In this document: positions 2,265 to 13,375 of the stretch, piece by piece | How the letters are laid out: each line of letters begins with the position of its first letter | Numbering within the stretch: the stretch's first letter is position 1 | Assembly (NCBI GenBank): GCA_021325275.1 | Contig: JAJPHL010000066.1 | Location: 1-64,000 of the forward strand | DNA length: 64,000 bases | Source: Terriglobia bacterium | Lineage (GTDB): Bacteria > Acidobacteriota > Terriglobia > JAJPHL01 | Reading direction: 5' to 3' | The notes under the pieces: model-generated | Database searches by the model: none | What the model saw: the letters and a program-made list of their open reading frames with translations, nothing else | What the model was told of the DNA's origin: nothing | Translations under genes and position numbers: made by a program

Positions 2265-2830
2265 TCAGAAGTGGAGCTTAGATTGATGCCGCTGCCGGGT
2301 CTTGTCTGTTCTGCAGTCACCAGTGGGTTTCCAGAAGGGTGAGGAGTTGTGCCGCGCGGCTACGATTGCTGGCGTTCGTTCGGTGTTGTCGAGAACTTGC
2401 GTGGTGAGACGATGGCGAAACACCACCTTTGTGCAAAAGTATGCCTGCTTCTTCTTGTCGAAATCGTAGTTCGATGCTGAGCTATTCTTCTTGCGCGTGA
2501 GGACGGCTAAATTGCTCAGCTTGTGGACCCACTGGCATTGCTCGGTAACTCGAACCACTTGCTACCTATTGCCGGGGGGTTCGCGGAAGGGCGTGCTCGA
2601 CCGTAATCGTCTGATAGTCGTGTTTCGCAGCGTCGCCGCTGAGAAGCATATCGACTCGCTGCAGGGTCGTCGCTCGGGCGCGGGCGGCAAACGTCTCCTA
2701 GAGCATGCTGTCGAGCTGGGCATACATATAGCACTGCTCGGTAAACTGCAGGTATGAATCAAGGCTTGGAGATCTATGTCCTTGACGATCGCGCTGGTAA
2801 TTGTATAGTGCGGGCATTTCCACCAGCACG
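2265..2830 (-). pseudogene. Remnant of DUF262/DUF1524 (GmrSD-type) HNH protein, C-terminal part
   Basis: Minus-strand reading in several frames recovers consecutive pieces of a DUF1524 HNH domain. These are [20 protein letters not shown] near 2640 (the TVEH-P motif), [11 protein letters not shown] near 2560, then KLSNLAVLTRKKNSSASNYD at about 2455-2520, and RAAQLLTLLETHW near 2310. They are separated by at least two frameshifts and in-frame stops, so no intact product is made. DUF262/DUF1524 proteins include the modification-dependent endonucleases GmrS/GmrD, which cut foreign modified DNA. The remnant follows the truncated hsdM directly, with no separate start, so it probably reached this position by deletion or recombination in a restriction island. 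Family assignment rests on motif recall only. Confidence 0.65.
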
Positions 2831-3404
2831 CGCACCACGCGCGACGGTGTGTAAAACTGTCCGCCCTTTTTTCCTTCGGCGCTCGCGAATTGCGACAGGA
2901 AATACTCATAGACGCGCCGAGCGTGTCTTTAACACGATCGGCGGGGCTGCCCAGAGCAATATCGCTTACCAGATTGATGAGTCGCCCGAGACGCTGCTTG
3001 TCGAGGCCGGGGCGCGCGTATTCCTTGGGAAGAACGCCTTTCAGTGAGGGATTGTCGCGCTCGATGGCGGTCATGGCGTCGTCCACGATTTTACCGATGG
3101 TTGGCTGTGGCGCATCCGCCTTCAGGTAGGTCCAGCGCGCTTCTTTCGGGACCCAGAAAATCCCGAACGCGCGATATTCGTCGGGGTCTTCGGGGTCCGC
3201 GCCGTCCTTCCTCTTCCCTTCCAACTCGGCGTGCTTAGCTTCGAAGGCGTCAGAGATGTACTTCAGGAAAATCAAGCCGAGGACGACATGCTTGTACTCG
3301 GCGGCGTCCATATTGTTGCGGAGCGCATCGGCAGCGGCCCAGAGTTTCGCCTCGAAACCGAGCTTCGCAGTGGTCTCGCCATTGTTGGCTTGTTTTTTCG
3401 CCAT
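2831..3404 (-). pseudogene. hsdM: Truncated, frameshifted type I methyltransferase subunit (HsdM N-terminus)
   Basis: From the ATG at 3404 the frame encodes a typical HsdM N-terminal helical domain ([20 protein letters not shown], then [13 protein letters not shown]). After DRVKDTLG near 2935 one base is missing. The next frame continues the HsdM sequence as [20 protein letters not shown] and [13 protein letters not shown], the start of the SAM-binding domain. The catalytic NPPF region is absent, because the sequence runs into DUF1524 fragments at about 2830. An intact HsdM has about 500 residues, so this is a dead remnant of a type I restriction-modification locus. The open frame extends upstream to 3653, but that part reads into the divergent gene at 3578 and has no HsdM character. 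Confidence 0.8.
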
Positions 3405-3577
3405 TGGGATTTCAATCTTACCGCGTTTTCCATCTGGGCGGCCTTGTGACAGTTTTTGCAAAGTCGACGTTGTGAGTCGTCTCGCTAATTCCCGAAACAG
3501 GACCGCCATTTTGAGGAGCGGGTCGCCTGTCCCGCTTGACAACTCTGCGATAATCGTCGTGCTCAGGGCCACGATCA

Positions 3578-6004
3578 ATGAGCCATGCACAGGCAGCGAA
3601 AACAAGCTCAAGCGCGACTCTGGCGCCTCTTGACTTGGTGTCCGCGCATCCATGGAGTCATGCCGTTTTCACCACCTATGCGCTAAGCCTTTCGTTCTTT
3701 GAAAGTGTCGTTCTCGATGCGCTGGTCCGCGGCGGCGGGCGAGAATCCCTTATCCTGGCCGACGTTCAGGGTGTGCGGGCGAGCTTGAACGAGCTAGGGG
3801 CCCACCGCGTCGGCAAGGATTATGACGTAGAGCCGGTCGCAGTCTCGGGAGGCGTCTTCCACCCGAAGGTAGCTGTTTTTTGCAGCGGAGAAGAATGTCA
3901 TCTATTGGTCGGTTCAGGCAATCTGACGTTCGGGGGGTGGGGTGGTAACTGTGAGGTGCTTGAACACTTGCATCCAAGCTTCGCCGCTGACGCCATGGAG
4001 GATGCAGCTTCCTTTTTCGAGTCGATCGCGTTGACCGAACGCGTCCGATGCAGTGCAGGTAAGCAATGCACCGCCATAGCAGTGGAACTTCGGAAGTGCG
4101 CCTCCGGCAAACCGCGAAACCGGAATATTCGCTTGTTCCATTCCCTAGGTCGATCGATCGCCGAGCAGATCGCCGAGGTAGTTGCGGAACTTGGGGGAGC
4201 CCAGCGCCTTGTCGCGGCCGCGCCGTTTTGGGATGGCTCCGCCGTCGACCAACTTTGCGCCGCGATTGGGCTCGATCGGCTATTCGTGCATGCTCACCCT
4301 CACGGTTGCGTCGAGGGTTTCGCCGGCTCGAATTGGCCGACAGGCTGCAGGAACAAGGTACAGGCAATTCAGCTCGAATTGTTAAACGCTCAAGGGCAGC
4401 GCCGCTTGCACGGCAAACTCTTCGAGATTATCTGCAAGCGCGGACGGATGATTGTTTCGGGGAGCGCAAATGGTACTGGGGCTGCGCTGAATAGAAATCA
4501 CAACGTTGAAGCATGCATCGTACGGATACAACCGCTTCAGGCCAAGGGCTGGACATTCATCCTCTCGGATCCGCCGGAGTCACAGGCGGCGCGCGATGAG
4601 GATCGGGACACGGAAGGGCAACCCGTCGGAGTGCTTCGCGCCGTTCTCGACGCTGACGAACTGTCGGGTGAGGTATTGGTACCTCGGATGAGTGGCCCCG
4701 TCTCCGTATCCTGTACGACGGGAACAGGTTCCGAGACCATCGGCGAGACTGTTGTTTCCTTAAGCGGCGCATTTCGGATCGCAGCGACCGCTTTGGAAGA
4801 GCGATCTTGGCTTGCGGGGCGTCTTGTCATTCGAGTTACGGATCAGCATCAAAGAATCGCGGAAGGCTTCGTCTCGATCGCGAGCTACGCGGACATCACG
4901 CGACGCGCGGGCGCGATCGGGCGGCGTTTGTTCGCCGTTTTGGCCGGCACGGAAACGCCGGAAGATGTCGCCGCAATCATCACTTGGTTCTACGAAGACG
5001 TGCGAAGGCTATCCGACACCTTGCCGACAAGCGGAAGTAGTGAAACAGGCGAGTCGACCAAATCAGAAGATGAAGCTGTCATCTCGGTTGCGGATCTGGC
5101 TCTGGGCGAAATCGTGACAGTTTCGCCCGAACCCTTCCATCCGAAGCGCGCTCATGGGAATTGGCTGCGCTTCATGAACCACATTTTTTCGGCTTTCCGA
5201 CAAAGGCGGGAACCACTGACTGCGAGATCGAACACGACAGCGACAACTGAAGACGAAGAAGAGGGGGACTCCTCGGAGGCCCCCGGTGATTCGGAAAAGG
5301 AAAATGCGGCGATCGAAAAGGCGTTTACTGCGTTCGATCGCCTTTTCGATCTGCTCCTGTCAAACGAATCGAGCGTGCGCAATTTAATGGTCGCTTTTGA
5401 CTTAACCCACTACATCTGCGGGCGAATGCAACCTGAGGTGAGTCGCGTCAAGGATTGGTTGTCGAGGCTCGTCTCTGTTCTGCTAAAGGCAGGTGTGCCG
5501 GTGGAACGTCAGCGCGACGTTGCAGCTGCCGTTCTCCTTCTCGCGGGAACCAGCACACAGGGCAACGCCTCCCGCGTAGCTCGCGATCGTCTTATTCGGA
5601 TGAAGATGGATTTTCAGGCTGGCATTCCAGCAATGGAGAACGTGCCAGGATTTGTCGCGGCATTGCCGTCCAGCCTGCTGCACACGGAAACATGGCAACG
5701 TATCCTAGAGATACGTACCTTTCCGGAGCAGGCTCGGGCTTACTTGCGTGCCCTCAATAGTGGGGGACCATCGAGTGAATATGCGGAGCTTGTCGGAGCG
5801 GCTGTCAAGGAAAAGCCGGTTCTGGATGATGCTCTCACATCGCCGACAGGCCGCGAGAGAATACTGGAGTTGAATCACTACCAGGAATTCTGCCCACGCT
5901 GCCGGACAGCACTGCCGAAGAGCGAAGTGTCCAAATTGCAAATCTTCTGTGTGGCTACAGCGGAGAATTGCTGCCGCAGGGTAATCGTCTGGCCGGGAGA
6001 CTGA
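3578..6004 (+). CDS. Phospholipase D-like nuclease family protein, first gene of a three-gene cassette
   Basis: An 808-residue protein with two HxK motifs of the PLD superfamily. The first is HPKVAVF (H95, K97) followed by [10 protein letters not shown]; the second is LHGKLFEI (H278, K280) followed by [13 protein letters not shown]-fold enzymes use paired HxK sites for phosphodiester cleavage, and many members in defence loci are nucleases. After the catalytic half there is a long helical part with an acidic linker near residues 545-575. A Cys-rich C-terminus (CPRCRTALP then [11 protein letters not shown]) may bind zinc. There is no signal peptide, so it should be cytoplasmic. The stop is 3 nt from the next ATG, so the two are probably translationally coupled. 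It sits next to decayed restriction genes. I do not recognise a named system with this composition; a role in phage or plasmid defence is inference. Confidence 0.8.
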
Positions 6005-6007
6005 CGA

Positions 6008-7501
6008 ATGGCACGATCCACGCTCGCCGAATTGACCGCCCGGGCAACAGCCGCGACCGAACCGGGATTTACGGCGGCCAGCACACCGAGGCTCGGTGGC
6101 GTCGATCCGCTCGGAATGCGTCAGATTAATTTTGATCTGATGGACCAAGTATTTCCGGGACTCAACAATGTTGCGCGGCACATTCGACCGTTCGTGCTAG
6201 CGACCTGGGCTTGGCGTCGGGCCAATCAAATCGCGCAGAAACAAGGAAAGCGCGAAATCCCCGTTGACCAAATGTCTGACTTCGTCGATCGTATTGACGT
6301 AATTTTCGCATGGTCGCAATTCATGAGCGATCCAGCCACGGATCTTCCGGGCAGTCGCGTACTCGCTAATATCCTGCGGGCAGATCAATGGACGTTTGGT
6401 GGCAGCGCATGGCGCCAGCGCCGAAAAGAGCGCCGCTTTTCGACAGCTTTGACTGCACCGATCAACTACGGACCCGCACTAAGGATGCTGGGTTGGGTTC
6501 AACCCCATTCTGAACACCGAGAGGTTCTCATACCAACACCGGCGGCAGCGTCGGCGCTCGATGCGTTCGAGGCGAAGATCAAAGATCGACTTAATCACGC
6601 GGCGTTTTCGCAATTCGGCTCCGTGACGGTCACTGCTAAAGAAGTGGGTCGATGGTCAGAGGCGTGGGCGCTAGCCAGTCCAACAAGGCCTGAGAAAACA
6701 GCAATGAAGGAAATGCTCTTCGGTCCAAATGCACCTCTGAGCCGGCAACGCGCAGGAGAACTCCTGCTAGCTGCGGCTAAACGGTTTTCAACAAAAGATA
6801 CTGCGGTTCTCCGTGCCGCAATGGCCGGTCGTCCATCGCGCTTTGAACCGCCGACAGACCTGATTGAAATCCGCGATACATGGCGCGTGGTGCAGATGCG
6901 ACAGCTATTTCGGCTGTCACTCGAGGCTTTGTTATGTTGGGCGCTTACGATTGTCAGCGAATCTTCGAAGACGACCGAAGCTCTAATCGCTCTGTTTCTC
7001 GATTGCGTACCAGTGCGCGCTAGGACTGTTCGCGAATGGCTTGCCTCACTCCGGCCGCGAAACGTGGGACCAACGGAGGTGATTGACGAAATCTCAGAAG
7101 CTCTTGCTTCGTCTCCGGACGAAGTGCCAAGAGCGGTCTTGCGTGGAATTGCACTGAGCCTTGCGGAGGCTCCTGAAAAGGATTCTCCCGGCGAGCGCCC
7201 CGACCGGCTACCATTGTCGCGCGCTCGCCGCGAAGCGGCTGCTCGGGGGGCCGCGTCGCCGCGCGAGTTCGTGCGGCACCTGATTGAGTCGTGGGTCTTG
7301 GCGCAACATGTATATTGGTCAGTCGGCAGAGGTCTCGCGGACGCGCGGGCGCAAGGCAAGACTCTGCTAAGGCTGAAGATCGTGCTGGACGAGGGCGGCT
7401 GGTCAGTAGCTCCGGGCGTCTCACCCGGGCCACCACCGCTACCGACTCCGGATCGACTGAAAACGGTCGTGAGCCTCGCGGATGAATGCGGCCTCCTCTA
7501 G
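6008..7501 (+). CDS. Unrecognised 497-aa protein, second gene of the PLD cassette
   Basis: It starts 3 nt after the PLD-like gene stops and has no signal peptide or membrane segment. The N-terminal region contains a distinctive block, DPLGMRQINFDLMDQVFPGL followed by NNVARHIRPFVLATWAWRRA. The middle is helical, and the protein ends in a proline-rich segment and LPTPDRLKTVVSLADECGLL. I cannot assign a family or catalytic motif. The tight spacing suggests it works with the nuclease, for example as an assembly, sensor or specificity subunit, but this is inference from position only. Confidence 0.75.
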   Translation: MARSTLAELTARATAATEPGFTAASTPRLGGVDPLGMRQINFDLMDQVFPGLNNVARHIRPFVLATWAWRRANQIAQKQGKREIPVDQMSDFVDRIDVIFAWSQFMSDPATDLPGSRVLANILRADQWTFGGSAWRQRRKERRFSTALTAPINYGPALRMLGWVQPHSEHREVLIPTPAAASALDAFEAKIKDRLNHAAFSQFGSVTVTAKEVGRWSEAWALASPTRPEKTAMKEMLFGPNAPLSRQRAGELLLAAAKRFSTKDTAVLRAAMAGRPSRFEPPTDLIEIRDTWRVVQMRQLFRLSLEALLCWALTIVSESSKTTEALIALFLDCVPVRARTVREWLASLRPRNVGPTEVIDEISEALASSPDEVPRAVLRGIALSLAEAPEKDSPGERPDRLPLSRARREAAARGAASPREFVRHLIESWVLAQHVYWSVGRGLADARAQGKTLLRLKIVLDEGGWSVAPGVSPGPPPLPTPDRLKTVVSLADECGLL

Positions 7502-7625
7502 TCGCCCATGCGAGGTTCGGACTGACGTTGCTCTGCCCGCTAGAGGCTACAATCCAGGAGTCCTTAGATTTGACGGTTAAGTCTCACCTATTGCTAAACT
7601 GCAATATCGCGAGGAGGTCCACGCA

Positions 7626-9035
7626 ATGACAGACTCTGAACCAGGCCCCGACTCCAAGACGCTCTCCACCAGCGACGAAAATGCATTCGGCCCTTCCGCC
7701 GAGCGGCGTCGCAAACGATCGAGGAAGAAGGGCAGGACGTTCGATGCTAAATCGCTCGACAGATACTTGCGCATTAGCTTTGCGTTTCCCGAAGAGAACC
7801 TCGCAGGGCTGCCCCTTGGCGCGAGTCCAAAGAAAGTCGGAAAGAAAAACAAGCAGACCGATGCCCACAAGGATGATTTCATTCGCGCACACGTCTCAGG
7901 TTTTTTCGAATTTGCGAAGGACTCACACCGGGAGGATGCAGGCGAGTTTCTGAACGAAATTGCGCATCACCCGGCGCTGGCACCGGTGGATGTACCCGGG
8001 AAAATCTCGGCTGCAGCTTACATATTCCAAGCGCGAGTGGCATATCGGCTCAAGACTGATGCAAGATACTGGGTGCTCGACGGACTTGGCAGCGACTATC
8101 CACATCCGTTTGCCCTGCGCGCAGGAGTTTTTCCTAGCTGGAAACGGCAGATCCGTTCACTGGAGACAACCCGACAGCGATTATGGGACAACTTCGCCGA
8201 TGCGGCGAAGGCGGAACACGGCGTCCTGGCGACCCACGACTGGAATAAAATGCCGGCCCAACTGCTCCAGGACGCCCTGAAGATCGTGGAAAGGGTGCTC
8301 GGTTGGATGGAAGCGTTCCCCGATCCAGTAGAACTTCGCAGCAAGTTTCGCGAGATTGTCAGGCCCGACGCTGACCGCGAAACGGTCGGCGTTATGGCTT
8401 ACGTGCTCGACCGAATATACCGGGAACGGGTGAGTATTCCGATGAAAGCCAAAGAGATTGAGTGTCGAATTGCGGAGTTGGAGACGAAGTACCTTGGTGA
8501 GAACATTCACTACGATCCCGATGACGGCTGCGCCGCGGTACGACTACAGATTCGTGCCTTCAAAAGATCGTCGGCGCGTGCGGCCTTGGACGCGAAACTG
8601 ACACGCAGTCTAAGAAAGTCTGAAACAGACTTTCGAAACAACGACCCTAAACGCGGGTTGGATGCGGACATGCGGTTCTGGGCAAGATATGATCGCCACG
8701 TCAAAGCCCACGACAAATGGCGAGACGAGACCACGTCCAGACTAGATCAAGACATGAGACGACTCTTTAAGGCCGCAAACTTCGAAGATCAGCTTGCCGA
8801 GGCGCTCGACAATCGTCACAAGCAAGTAGGTCACTACATCGACTTGGAAAAACGTTGGCTCGCGCAGGAACGCGCCCACCTCGACAAACTGAAAGCGCCG
8901 AACGTCAACGTTAGCAAGTATGGGCAAGAAATGCGCAAGTGGATGAGGCGCTGGGAATCGACATGGGAATTATACGGGAGCGATTCGACAAACGGGAATC
9001 CCTCCACTGCGCCGCATCCCGAATCGTCGTCCTAG
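7626..9035 (+). CDS. Unrecognised 469-aa charged protein, third gene of the PLD cassette
   Basis: The ATG at 7626 is preceded by a strong GAGGAGGT at about 7611. The gap from the previous gene is 124 nt, so it may have its own promoter but lies in the same direction. The N-terminus is basic and low in complexity (SAERRRKRSRKKGR, residues about 26-39), then comes a helical body. Around residues 310-430 it is rich in Arg, Lys, Asp and Glu and may form coiled coil. No transmembrane segment or known catalytic motif is visible. The basic N-terminus would suit nucleic-acid contact, which is inference. Its last codons overlap the stop of the convergent DUF5681 gene by 4 bp. I do not recognise the family. 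Confidence 0.7.
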   Translation: MTDSEPGPDSKTLSTSDENAFGPSAERRRKRSRKKGRTFDAKSLDRYLRISFAFPEENLAGLPLGASPKKVGKKNKQTDAHKDDFIRAHVSGFFEFAKDSHREDAGEFLNEIAHHPALAPVDVPGKISAAAYIFQARVAYRLKTDARYWVLDGLGSDYPHPFALRAGVFPSWKRQIRSLETTRQRLWDNFADAAKAEHGVLATHDWNKMPAQLLQDALKIVERVLGWMEAFPDPVELRSKFREIVRPDADRETVGVMAYVLDRIYRERVSIPMKAKEIECRIAELETKYLGENIHYDPDDGCAAVRLQIRAFKRSSARAALDAKLTRSLRKSETDFRNNDPKRGLDADMRFWARYDRHVKAHDKWRDETTSRLDQDMRRLFKAANFEDQLAEALDNRHKQVGHYIDLEKRWLAQERAHLDKLKAPNVNVSKYGQEMRKWMRRWESTWELYGSDSTNGNPSTAPHPESSS

Positions 9036-9472: not shown

Positions 9473-10804
9473 CTACGGGCGAGCGTTTTCCTCCTCGCAT
9501 AATTCCGGCTGGAGTCCCAGCAGACTCAGTCGCTCGAGTGCCACGGCAACGAACGGTGGAGACAGTTCCATCGCGTAGCAGATCCGCCTCAGCTTCTCGG
9601 CAGCCACGAGTTGCGTGCCGCTCCCGGAGAATGGCTCGAAGCAAATATCTCCTGGTTTCGTGTGTTGCCGCATCGGAATGGCGAACAGTTCTATCGGTTT
9701 TTCGGTTGGGTGAACGCTCGGCTCTCCCGGCTTCAGCGTTGGAAAAGACCACACGCTTGGCGGGTAGTCCTCTGAACAGCGCTGCGGCTTCTTTCCCTTT
9801 AGCCAACCGAAAAAGCACGGCTCGTGCTGCCACATATACCAAGAGCGCGTCAGGATCGGGCGATCCTTGGCCCAAATAATTTGCTGATGCACGAACGCGC
9901 CGTGTTGTTCCCACACGGATTCGAGCAACGCTTGTCGCCGGCTCGCATGCCAGCAATACCACGCGGCGTCCTCGGTGATGGCATTCTCGATCGCCACCTT
10001 CACGAATGCATCGTAGAGCGCGTGACCTTTCTCGGGAGAATCAACGTCAGAGTATTTGTCTTTCCAATCCTTGTCGCCAGGATGCTTTCGACCGTGCGAT
10101 TTCGTCCACTTGTGCGGATGATTCGCTCCGTTGTAATCGACCAGGTACGGCGGATCGGTGGCAAACAAACAGGCGCGCTGGCCGTTCATGAGTAAACGTA
10201 CATCCGTTTCCGATGTGCTGTCGCCACAAAGCAAACGATGCTTGCCGACGATCCACAGTTGTCCGAGCGCGGTGTTCCACTTTTTCTGCAGTTCGGCGGC
10301 GCGATCAATCAGGGACGACGGATCATCCGGGGCCAGTTCGAGCTGGCCTTGGTAGACCTCCTCGAAGCCCGTTCCTGCCAATGCGTCCGCTCGCCCGAAC
10401 TCCTCGACAATCTTCTGAAGTTCCCGCTCGTCCCAACCGCCGAGAACCGTAGTCTGGTTGTCGGCCAACAAGTAAGCTTCCGCGTCACGATCATTCGCGA
10501 AAGCGATGCCTCGGACTACCGGGACAAACCAATCGTCCTTTTCCGCCCGGATGCGGTCGGGCGGATCGCGGCCTTCCAACTTGGCTTTCTGAAGCGATTC
10601 CAAGCGTCCGTGGCCGGCGACGAGTCGAGCTGTGCGCTCATCCAAAATCATCGGACTCACGTAGCCGAAGCGACCCATCGAAGCGAGGACCGAATCGATC
10701 CTGTGCTTCTTGGGATTGCGCGTGGCGGGTTGAAGCGAGCCGAGAGGTAAGTATTCGACTCGCAGTTGCGAATGTTCCGGGCGCGGCGTTTTGGGCTTCG
10801 GCAT
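9473..10804 (-). CDS. ParB-domain / N6-adenine or N4-cytosine DNA methyltransferase, phage-like
   Basis: A 443-residue fusion. Residues about 12-130 form a ParB/Srx-like domain (LVAGHGRLESL at 61-71). A DNA methyltransferase follows, with the catalytic DPPY at 217-220 and the SAM-binding motif FEPFSGSGTQ near the C-terminus. DPPY preceding FxGxG puts it in the beta order of amino-methyltransferases. HPTEKPIELF before the SAM motif is typical. Such ParB-MTase fusions are common in phages and integrative elements, where they modify the element's own DNA. No cognate restriction enzyme is visible beside it, so it looks like an orphan. It forms an operon with DUF5681. Confidence 0.88.
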   Translation of the reverse strand: MPKPKTPRPEHSQLRVEYLPLGSLQPATRNPKKHRIDSVLASMGRFGYVSPMILDERTARLVAGHGRLESLQKAKLEGRDPPDRIRAEKDDWFVPVVRGIAFANDRDAEAYLLADNQTTVLGGWDERELQKIVEEFGRADALAGTGFEEVYQGQLELAPDDPSSLIDRAAELQKKWNTALGQLWIVGKHRLLCGDSTSETDVRLLMNGQRACLFATDPPYLVDYNGANHPHKWTKSHGRKHPGDKDWKDKYSDVDSPEKGHALYDAFVKVAIENAITEDAAWYCWHASRRQALLESVWEQHGAFVHQQIIWAKDRPILTRSWYMWQHEPCFFGWLKGKKPQRCSEDYPPSVWSFPTLKPGEPSVHPTEKPIELFAIPMRQHTKPGDICFEPFSGSGTQLVAAEKLRRICYAMELSPPFVAVALERLSLLGLQPELCEEENARP

Positions 10805-11176: not shown

Positions 11177-12547
11177 TTGGTCCAACATGAGGAACCGAAA
11201 ATGAGGGCCTCGGGCGAGGCGATTCCGCCCGTGTCAAGCGAAACCTTTGTGGTTCCGGCGAACCCTGGAACTGTCCTATTTGGCACGCTCGCTGAAATCT
11301 GGGAGCATGACTATGTTGAGCGCGTTGTCGGCGGCAAGCCGCTGGTGGCGGCGTCGACTCGTGGCAAATACCGGAACCACCTGCACAATCACATCTTGCC
11401 CAAATGGGCTTCGACGCCCATCGGCCAGCTTCGCTCCAAGCTGGTGCTCGATTGGTTGCAACAGGAATCGGGGTCGTGGTTCATGATGACCGACCTGCGC
11501 AACATCATGAGCGGCATCTTCACCAAGGCCCAAGAGTGGGAGATTCTGCCCGACACGTTTGCCAACCCGATCGCACGAGTAAAGCTGCCGAAGAAATGGC
11601 AGGTGTACGAAAAGCGGATTCTCTCGGAACAAGAGACCGTCCGCGTGTTCGATCGTCTTCAAGACCCCAACCGACTCATCTGCGAGATTTGCCTCGGAAC
11701 CGGCGCGCGCATTTCCGAGGTGACCGGCTTGCAGGTGAAGCACATCAATCTCGACAAGGCGTGCATCCGAATCGAGCAGCGGCATTGGCGCGGTGACATC
11801 GACGATCCAAAAACGGAAAGAAGCAAGCGCACGTTGACGTTGGGCAGCTTGGTCGAGCGAATGCGCGATTGGATTGCTGCGTTGCCTGCGTCGTCGCCGG
11901 ATGCGTGGGTGTTCCCTCAGGACAATCGCAAGAAGCCGATGTGGGATTCCGGTGTGCGCAAGGCTCTGAAGGACGCCGCCAAGCTGGAAAGCTGCGATTT
12001 CCCTGGCTTCGGGCTCCACTCCTTGCGCCGCGCCAACATCACGTGGCGACAAGAAGTTGGCGGATCGAGTATCGAGGCGTCGCGCATCGCCGGCCACGCC
12101 AGCACCAGGATGACCGAGGAATACACCGTGGTCCAACTGAACCGCCAAGCGGAACTGACCCGGCGCATCCAAGAGAAAGTATTTGGCGTCATCGCCTCGG
12201 CGCCGCAGCCGACTGCGGTCGCGCAGAATTGCCTTGCTTTGCCTTCCGTTCAGAGCGATGAATCGACCCTCGAAAGGAGCCACACCATGGCGAAGAAACA
12301 AACTGGCAAGCAAGCGAAGCGCAAAAAAGCGCCCGCGATCGAAGTACGTGAAGGAAGCAAGAAAGCGAAAGTGATTCAGATGCTGCAGCGGCCCGACGGC
12401 GCAACGCTCGACGGCCTGATGAAAGCAACAGACTGGCAAGCGCACACCGTTCGTGGATTCCTCAGCGCGACCGTCGGCAAGCAACTGGGGTTGAAAGTTG
12501 ACTCCAGCAAGCGCGACGACGGCCAGCGCGTATACCGCATCGCGTAA
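11177..12547 (+). CDS. int: Tyrosine recombinase (integrase) with C-terminal DUF3489 domain
   Basis: A 456-residue protein starting at TTG 11177, chosen because AGGAGG at 11164-11169 is 7 nt upstream; an ATG at 11201 is the alternative. Residues about 30-140 are the core-binding (SAM-like) domain and 150-330 the catalytic domain. The active-site set is complete: R178 (GTGARISEV), K212 (DPKTERSKR), H281 and R284 (HSLRRAN), H307 (AGHAST) and Y316 (MTEEYT). It should integrate and excise the island; the tRNA-Val-like site lies 150 bp downstream. Residues 371-456 form a separate DUF3489 domain (TDWQAHTVRGFLSATVGKQ). This is unusual for an integrase, and an internal start there may also release it as a separate protein. 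Confidence 0.93.
   Translation: MVQHEEPKMRASGEAIPPVSSETFVVPANPGTVLFGTLAEIWEHDYVERVVGGKPLVAASTRGKYRNHLHNHILPKWASTPIGQLRSKLVLDWLQQESGSWFMMTDLRNIMSGIFTKAQEWEILPDTFANPIARVKLPKKWQVYEKRILSEQETVRVFDRLQDPNRLICEICLGTGARISEVTGLQVKHINLDKACIRIEQRHWRGDIDDPKTERSKRTLTLGSLVERMRDWIAALPASSPDAWVFPQDNRKKPMWDSGVRKALKDAAKLESCDFPGFGLHSLRRANITWRQEVGGSSIEASRIAGHASTRMTEEYTVVQLNRQAELTRRIQEKVFGVIASAPQPTAVAQNCLALPSVQSDESTLERSHTMAKKQTGKQAKRKKAPAIEVREGSKKAKVIQMLQRPDGATLDGLMKATDWQAHTVRGFLSATVGKQLGLKVDSSKRDDGQRVYRIA
12287..12547 (+). CDS. DUF3489 protein from an internal in-frame start within the integrase gene
   Basis: Codon 371 of the integrase is an ATG (12287) preceded at 7 nt by GAAAGGAG (12272-12279), a strong Shine-Dalgarno. 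The 86-residue product would have a basic N-terminus (MAKKQTGKQAKRKKAP) and a helix-turn-helix-like core ending in VYRIA. This matches stand-alone DUF3489 proteins, usually small accessory proteins of mobile elements and possible DNA binders. Two readings are possible: a gene fusion that kept its old start, or deliberate dual expression. The sequence supports initiation here but cannot prove it. Confidence 0.55.
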   Translation: MAKKQTGKQAKRKKAPAIEVREGSKKAKVIQMLQRPDGATLDGLMKATDWQAHTVRGFLSATVGKQLGLKVDSSKRDDGQRVYRIA

Positions 12548-12854: not shown

Positions 12855-13127
12855 ATGAGCGACCCTCGCCAACACGTTCACGAGCTGATCGATCAGTTGC
12901 CCCCGTCGCAACTCGCCGCCGTCGCCGGGCTGCTCGAGTCCATGCTCGATCCGATGGCCCGCGCAATCAGAAACGCGCCGATCGATGACGAGCCGATCAG
13001 TGACGAGGAAGAGCAAGCCGTGGCCCGGTCTAAAGAATGGTTTAAACACCATGAAGGCTGCTCGCTTGAAGATCTCGCCTCCGATATGGGCATCTCCATG
13101 AACGAGATTCGTAACGCGAAGGGCTAG
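12855..13127 (+). CDS. Putative antitoxin of a RelE/ParE-type pair
   Basis: A 90-residue acidic protein located 2 nt before a RelE/ParE-like toxin gene. It has an N-terminal helical part (LIDQLPPSQLAAVAGLLESM) and an acidic stretch (DDEPISDEEEQAVARSKEWF). The C-terminus (LEDLASDMGISMNEIRN) resembles a small DNA-binding or toxin-wrapping helix pair. The layout (antitoxin first, toxin next, coupled) is typical of type II toxin-antitoxin operons, in which the antitoxin neutralises the toxin and represses the operon. A purine-rich GAGAGAG precedes the ATG. Confidence 0.72.
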   Translation: MSDPRQHVHELIDQLPPSQLAAVAGLLESMLDPMARAIRNAPIDDEPISDEEEQAVARSKEWFKHHEGCSLEDLASDMGISMNEIRNAKG

Positions 13128-13129
13128 GC

Positions 13130-13375
13130 TTGAAGCGAATCCGTATCTCGGAGGAAGCCCAAGCGGATATCCGCACGATCCCCCAGGCCATCGCCATTAA
13201 CATTCTCACAGCCATTCACCGATTGGCCGAAACCGGCGCGGGTGACGTGAAGACGCTGCAGGGTCGCGACGGCGAGAAGCGTCTACGCGTCGGCGATTAC
13301 CGTGTTCGCTTCACGGAAGAAGGCGAGACGCTCCAGGTCCACACCGTCAAGAATCGCAAGGACGCCTACCGCTGA
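13130..13375 (+). CDS. RelE/ParE-family toxin (mRNA interferase or gyrase inhibitor type)
   Basis: An 81-residue protein read from a TTG at 13130, 2 nt after the antitoxin stop. It has the compact RelE/ParE fold signature: ISEEAQADIRTIPQAI at the start, LQGRDGEKRLRVGDYRVRFT in the middle and HTVKNRKDAY at the end. The basic residues of the central strand and the RVGDYRVRF motif are typical of RelE-like enzymes that cut mRNA on the ribosome. ParE-like gyrase inhibition cannot be excluded from sequence alone. Its stop TGA overlaps the ATG of the next gene by 1 nt. Confidence 0.85.
   Translation: MKRIRISEEAQADIRTIPQAIAINILTAIHRLAETGAGDVKTLQGRDGEKRLRVGDYRVRFTEEGETLQVHTVKNRKDAYR

Follow-up and report, generated by a model that had tools for sequence, protein, structure and literature searches.

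Two adjacent genes of the window (the whole stretch of 64,000 nucleotides analysed here), referred to as gene 1 and gene 2, are proposed to form a portable two-gene defence module in which a PLD DNA nuclease would act together with a recognition or control partner, a reading to which a probability of about 60% is assigned. The conserved unit consists of these two genes and not of three, as the first-pass annotation had suggested when it joined them with gene 3 in a single cassette and offered the trio as a candidate new defence system. For genes 1 and 2 the candidacy as a defence system has good support, since they show obligate adjacency, co-evolution, a defence-island context and a patchy horizontal distribution, and it was abandoned for the trio because gene 3 is an orphan neighbour. 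The defence activity of the pair, its target and its self-protection are inferred.

The three genes are intact open reading frames on the forward strand, with the boundaries originally described. Gene 1 (3578..6004) encodes a two-motif protein of the PLD superfamily of 808 aa, gene 2 (6008..7501) a partner protein of 497 aa and gene 3 (7626..9035) a basic orphan protein of 469 aa that lies outside the conserved module. Gene 2 starts 3 nt past the stop of gene 1, and a spacer of 124 nt precedes gene 3. The GC3 of the three genes (0.57-0.63 vs 0.66-0.76 in most host genes from ~14 kb on) fits an acquired island. Profile searches recovered all the flanking features that had been claimed. Upstream, on the reverse strand, a decayed N-terminal fragment of a type I RM HsdM (2562..3653; HsdM_N PF12161, 1.8e-28, covering only residues 101-228), whose true start is likely near 3402, and a GmrSD/DUF1524 nuclease remnant (GmrSD_C, 2265..2558; PF07510, 6.3e-11) justify the description of the surroundings as a restriction graveyard. 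Downstream are a phage-type ParB-N6/N4 methyltransferase (9473..10804, reverse strand; PHROG 498, 1e-98), a DUF5681 gene and a tyrosine integrase (11177..12547, forward strand; PF00589, 1e-18) related to island mobility, which carries a DUF3489 domain fused at its C-terminus (PF11994, 3e-26). Just past the integrase, two small adjoining ORFs (12855-13375, forward strand) resemble by eye an antitoxin and a RelE/ParE-type toxin (RIRISEEAQADIRTIPQAIAINIL...).

The product of gene 1 comprises a catalytic pseudo-dimer (residues ~15-340) with the half-sites H95/K97/N115/E126 and H278/K280/N298/E311, a beta domain (~350-436), an acidic low-confidence linker (~481-570), a helical domain (~571-760) and a C-terminal Cys cluster (CPRC...CC, ~760-808) that is common to most relatives (motif table) and may constitute a zinc ribbon; both HxK motifs and the Cys-rich tail had been noticed at first reading. 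Pfam PLDc_2 matches the protein at 9e-6, and the HxK...GSxN half-sites and the fold of this superfamily are both present. The eight half-site positions (H, K, N and E, twice) are invariant in every relative retaining the half-site concerned (motif table), the Glu partners being located in gene 1 at +11 and +13 after each Asn. The position of the Asp of the classical HKD motif is variable across the family, and gene 1 lacks this residue, as do Tdp1 and BfiI. In the AF2 model (pLDDT 79) residues 9-342 fit Tdp1 (VIA Z 21.4, 3.9 A over 311 residues), and bacterial and lipid PLDs rank behind with Z ~17; a sequence search of solved structures produced no match at E<=0.01. Based on the invariant half-sites, the Tdp1 fold and the absence of the HKD Asp as in Tdp1 and BfiI, the natural reading of gene 1 is that of a putative DNA phosphodiesterase that needs no metal and forms one active site in each chain.

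Gene 2 encodes a basic protein (pI 9.9) in which the family alignment reveals two conserved blocks, NNVARHIRPF...W and a C-terminal W..QH..W...RGLADAR...EGGW...PTPDRL. The first of these had been singled out as distinctive and it is in fact the strongest signature of the family. The AF2 model (pLDDT 82) is mostly helical. Its top two VIA rows, over chain residues 2-251, both belong to the nicking endonuclease Nt.BspD6I (Z 6.9 and 6.5), a weak match (6.1 A rmsd over 200 residues for the better row) below the Z of 8 that the tool considers safe. These rows stand ~2 Z units above those of membrane proteins, with one DtxR row in between (Z 5.0). Foldseek searches against the PDB and viral models gave nothing at E<=0.001, a null result that does not amount to proof of a new fold, and the sequence search of solved structures returned chance-level matches only (best E 0.05). 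The basic charge together with the weak match to a restriction/nicking enzyme led to the proposal that gene 2 may be a DNA-recognition or control subunit. In public records, gene 2 homologs (L040, 8926-10419; L064, 11352-12845) are named 'septum formation inhibitor-activating ATPase', a name for which no support was found here.

The association between genes 1 and 2 was evidenced by their adjacency in every relative locus with intact flanks (~35 loci), distributed among alphaproteobacteria, betaproteobacteria, Actinomycetota, Bacteroidota and the class of the window itself. When 84,980 genomes were scanned with gene 2, 13 loci were retrieved. In 11 of them a complete homolog of gene 1 (37-47% identity) immediately precedes the gene 2 match; the other two are a locus beginning within gene 1 at a contig edge (L003) and a short partial match (L015). 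Plasmids contribute additional pairs in Sphingopyxis, Novosphingobium, Sphingomonas and Rhizobium. Decaying copies were observed on the Rhizobium plasmids, with a truncated PLD gene (L043), without the PLD gene (L044) or without the first half-site (L046). A second, unnamed family of pairs, in which the partner comes first and the PLD gene second (L035-L037, L056-L063 and L080-L085), was reached by searching the class of the window with PADLOC ZacA and includes members in Streptomyces, Miltoncostaea, Undibacterium, Polaromonas, Myroides and Roseovarius. Gene 2 aligns with the partner of this family over its full length (hhalign 4.6e-14, 443 columns), and gene 1 with the PLD protein over 403 columns (1.8e-29), a homology that extends past the motifs; a partner profile built without the window recovers gene 2 when run on the genome of the window (6e-5).

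Recovery of one gene led to the other in both directions. The Streptomyces and Miltoncostaea loci were found by the PLD protein alone and the adjoining gene then matched the partner profile, and the loci L080-L085 were found via the partner alone with a PLD gene adjoining in 6/6. The distances among PLD proteins correlate with those among partners (r=0.95 over 27 loci and 0.98 over 15; 0/2000 permutations as high), and full-length gene 1 homologs are present in six whole genomes only within such pairs. The two genes overlap or lie <=9 nt apart, and since either of them can come first, this linkage cannot be attributed to one frozen inheritance. The distribution is patchy and partly plasmid-borne, and no close relatives of the pair were detected in viral contigs or phages.

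The defence context of the relatives is strong when read locus by locus, and the pair is found repeatedly beside or within Zorya, BREX, Hma, type I and type IIG RM, Septu and Mokosh loci. Zorya I is encoded directly upstream of the pair in L006 and BREX downstream in L004, and in L035 the two genes extend a BREX operon beyond brxL; Hma (L038), type I RM (L037 and L063), Septu and Mokosh (L042) and an OLD-type ATPase (L084) are neighbours elsewhere. In the Myroides plasmid pFM-G13 (L062, 2430-16278) the pair separates hsdS from hsdR within a type I RM operon, with a WYL regulator upstream, and in L085 (1411-18001) a Tn7-like element with a TnsB-like protein carries the pair and a type IIG restriction-methyltransferase. 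A SIR2 protein, a small protein and a RecF/SMC-like ATPase are encoded in identical order beside the pair in two loci (L080, 10062-14404; L082, 14549-18000), one of the SIR2 genes being accompanied by an LmuB-like ATPase; this set is possibly a recurrent companion system.

Altogether, a mechanism can be hypothesized in which the two half-sites of gene 1, which sequence and model show, would come together as a single-chain active site and cleave DNA independently of metals. Gene 2, an obligate partner in terms of pairing, would contribute recognition; most likely it would bind DNA, position gene 1 on foreign DNA and otherwise restrain it. As the module encodes neither an ATPase nor a methyltransferase, it is probably ATP-independent and would cut without translocation, and it would either recognise some modification or structure in the invading DNA or back up a neighbouring RM, BREX, Zorya or Hma system. 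A broader proposal, which falls somewhat short of even odds, is that the pair represents a widespread, stand-alone and undescribed two-gene defence system. In it, an ATP-independent PLD nuclease of the Tdp1/BfiI type would be governed by a dedicated recognition subunit that resembles no PDB structure clearly, and the pair could join BREX, Zorya, Hma or RM loci with either gene first.

A different, rather unlikely arrangement would be that of a toxin and its restrainer, gene 1 being a non-specific suicidal DNase that gene 2 keeps inactive and sets free once it detects an infection or the breakdown of an RM or BREX system next to it, leading to abortive infection. The obligate stoichiometric linkage, the overlapping genes and the frequent location beside or within larger defence operons are in line with this possibility, for which there are precedents in the pAgo-associated PLD protein AgaP, toxic alone and neutralised by its partner (PMC11442185), and in the back-up nucleases carried by BREX loci (PMC12839542). 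However, gene 2 (497 aa and basic, with strong conservation throughout) exceeds the usual antitoxin in both size and conservation, and in the window's clade it is the PLD gene that is encoded first, a position often taken by the antitoxin. The participation of gene 1 in DNA repair, as a Tdp1-like phosphodiesterase that gene 2 would load and that would clear DNA ends of attached protein or other adducts, seems improbable: although no structure matches better than Tdp1 (Z 21.4 vs ~17 for lipid PLDs), which likewise lacks the HKD Asp, Tdp1 also ranks first because it is a single-chain pseudo-dimer, gene 1 keeps a Glu at +11/+13 after each Asn, and the distribution is patchy, plasmid-borne and defence-linked rather than that of a housekeeping function. 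Still less probable is a functional operon of all three genes in this organism with gene 3 as a lineage-specific third subunit. Gene 3 shares the strand and the low GC3 of gene 1 and has a strong ribosome-binding site; nevertheless, this GAGGAGG site is its own and follows a gap of 124 nt, gene 3 relatives are missing from every locus of the gene 1/gene 2 relatives, so that the expected co-occurrence of the trio across genomes failed while that of the pair held, and homologs were detected neither in 399 genomes of its class nor in plasmids, phages or viral contigs. The solved-structure sequence search with gene 3 gave nothing at E<=1, and matches to HEPN-AbiV (E 0.23) and to a PHROG (E 0.005) were treated as chance.

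The possibility that the pair is a remnant of ZacABC, a candidate system of PADLOC (PDLC03828-03830), was largely refuted and is regarded as the most remote of these explanations. As defined here by the PADLOC models and the loci examined, ZacABC resembles the pair in that a PLD protein with two half-sites (ZacB) adjoins a partner (ZacA), the genes often overlapping, and gene 2 and ZacA have in common a short N-terminal RxRxF...PW block; unlike the window pair, ZacABC includes a third gene, encoding the SNF2-type helicase ZacC. Gene 1 matches ZacB (PADLOC 9.6e-16, residues 87-329; profile-profile 4.8e-15 over the PLD part), which together with the short ZacA match of gene 2 would agree with a Zac system that has lost its helicase. 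Yet gene 2 is not a full-length homolog of ZacA, as only ~48 N-terminal columns match (E 0.006), and gene 2 and its kin share these 48 residues with ZacA vs 443 columns with the other pair family. Pairs without a helicase are the rule in the gene 1/gene 2 family, no ZacC is encoded in the window, and the whole genome contains only a 44-residue match interrupted by a stop. The earlier view that no named system has this gene content thus stands in part: PADLOC already includes distant relatives (ZacB/ZacA and PDC-M27B), and the window pair fails the Zac definition. Nothing on Zac, PDC-M27 or DUF6361 was found in the literature searched.

PLD nucleases appear time and again in the immune systems of bacteria, for the most part as components of machines driven by helicases. 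If the module proposed here is correct, a minimal pair of PLD nuclease and partner that moves among many systems would be a simple model of ATP-free nuclease targeting and safekeeping, as well as a new part of defence islands amenable to annotation.

Among the systems already described, BfiI, R.NgoAVII and R.CglI resemble the pair in combining PLD nuclease chemistry with a separate DNA-recognition function, and the spacing of BfiI H105/K107/N125/E136 equals that of the first half-site of gene 1 (95/97/115/126). These enzymes have a fused B3 recognition domain and dimerise, and NgoAVII and CglI need an ATPase (PMC4267653); in contrast, gene 1 holds both half-sites in one chain, the partner is separate, and the searches run gave no sign of a B3 domain in the pair. 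No cognate methyltransferase travelling with the pair is conserved among the relatives, which argues against its assignment to the RM systems; that of the window is of phage type, unlinked to the pair and absent from the relatives. Mokosh (MkoB), DISARM (DrmC) and Pbe (PbeA) also contain PLD nucleases within defence operons, but these work with large helicases/ATPases and their full-length similarity to gene 1 is weak or null (DrmC equivalog, 14.6 bits vs a cut-off of 133). In a survey of BREX loci, PLD-type (HKD) nucleases occur chiefly as BrxL fusions (PMC12839542), whereas the L035 pair is separate and follows brxL. The pAgo-AgaP (APAP) system likewise combines a PLD nuclease with a nucleic-acid-binding partner (PMC11442185); however, that partner is an Argonaute, to which gene 2 has no similarity. 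Searches of Pfam, NCBIfam, PHROGs and PADLOC gave no known-system label above curated cut-offs for gene 1 or gene 2, and the pair is named as a system in no catalogue or paper among those searched. Since no paper naming it was found and gene 2 has no strong counterpart among the PADLOC models, the pair is called a putative PLD-nuclease defence in two-gene form, with no helicase.
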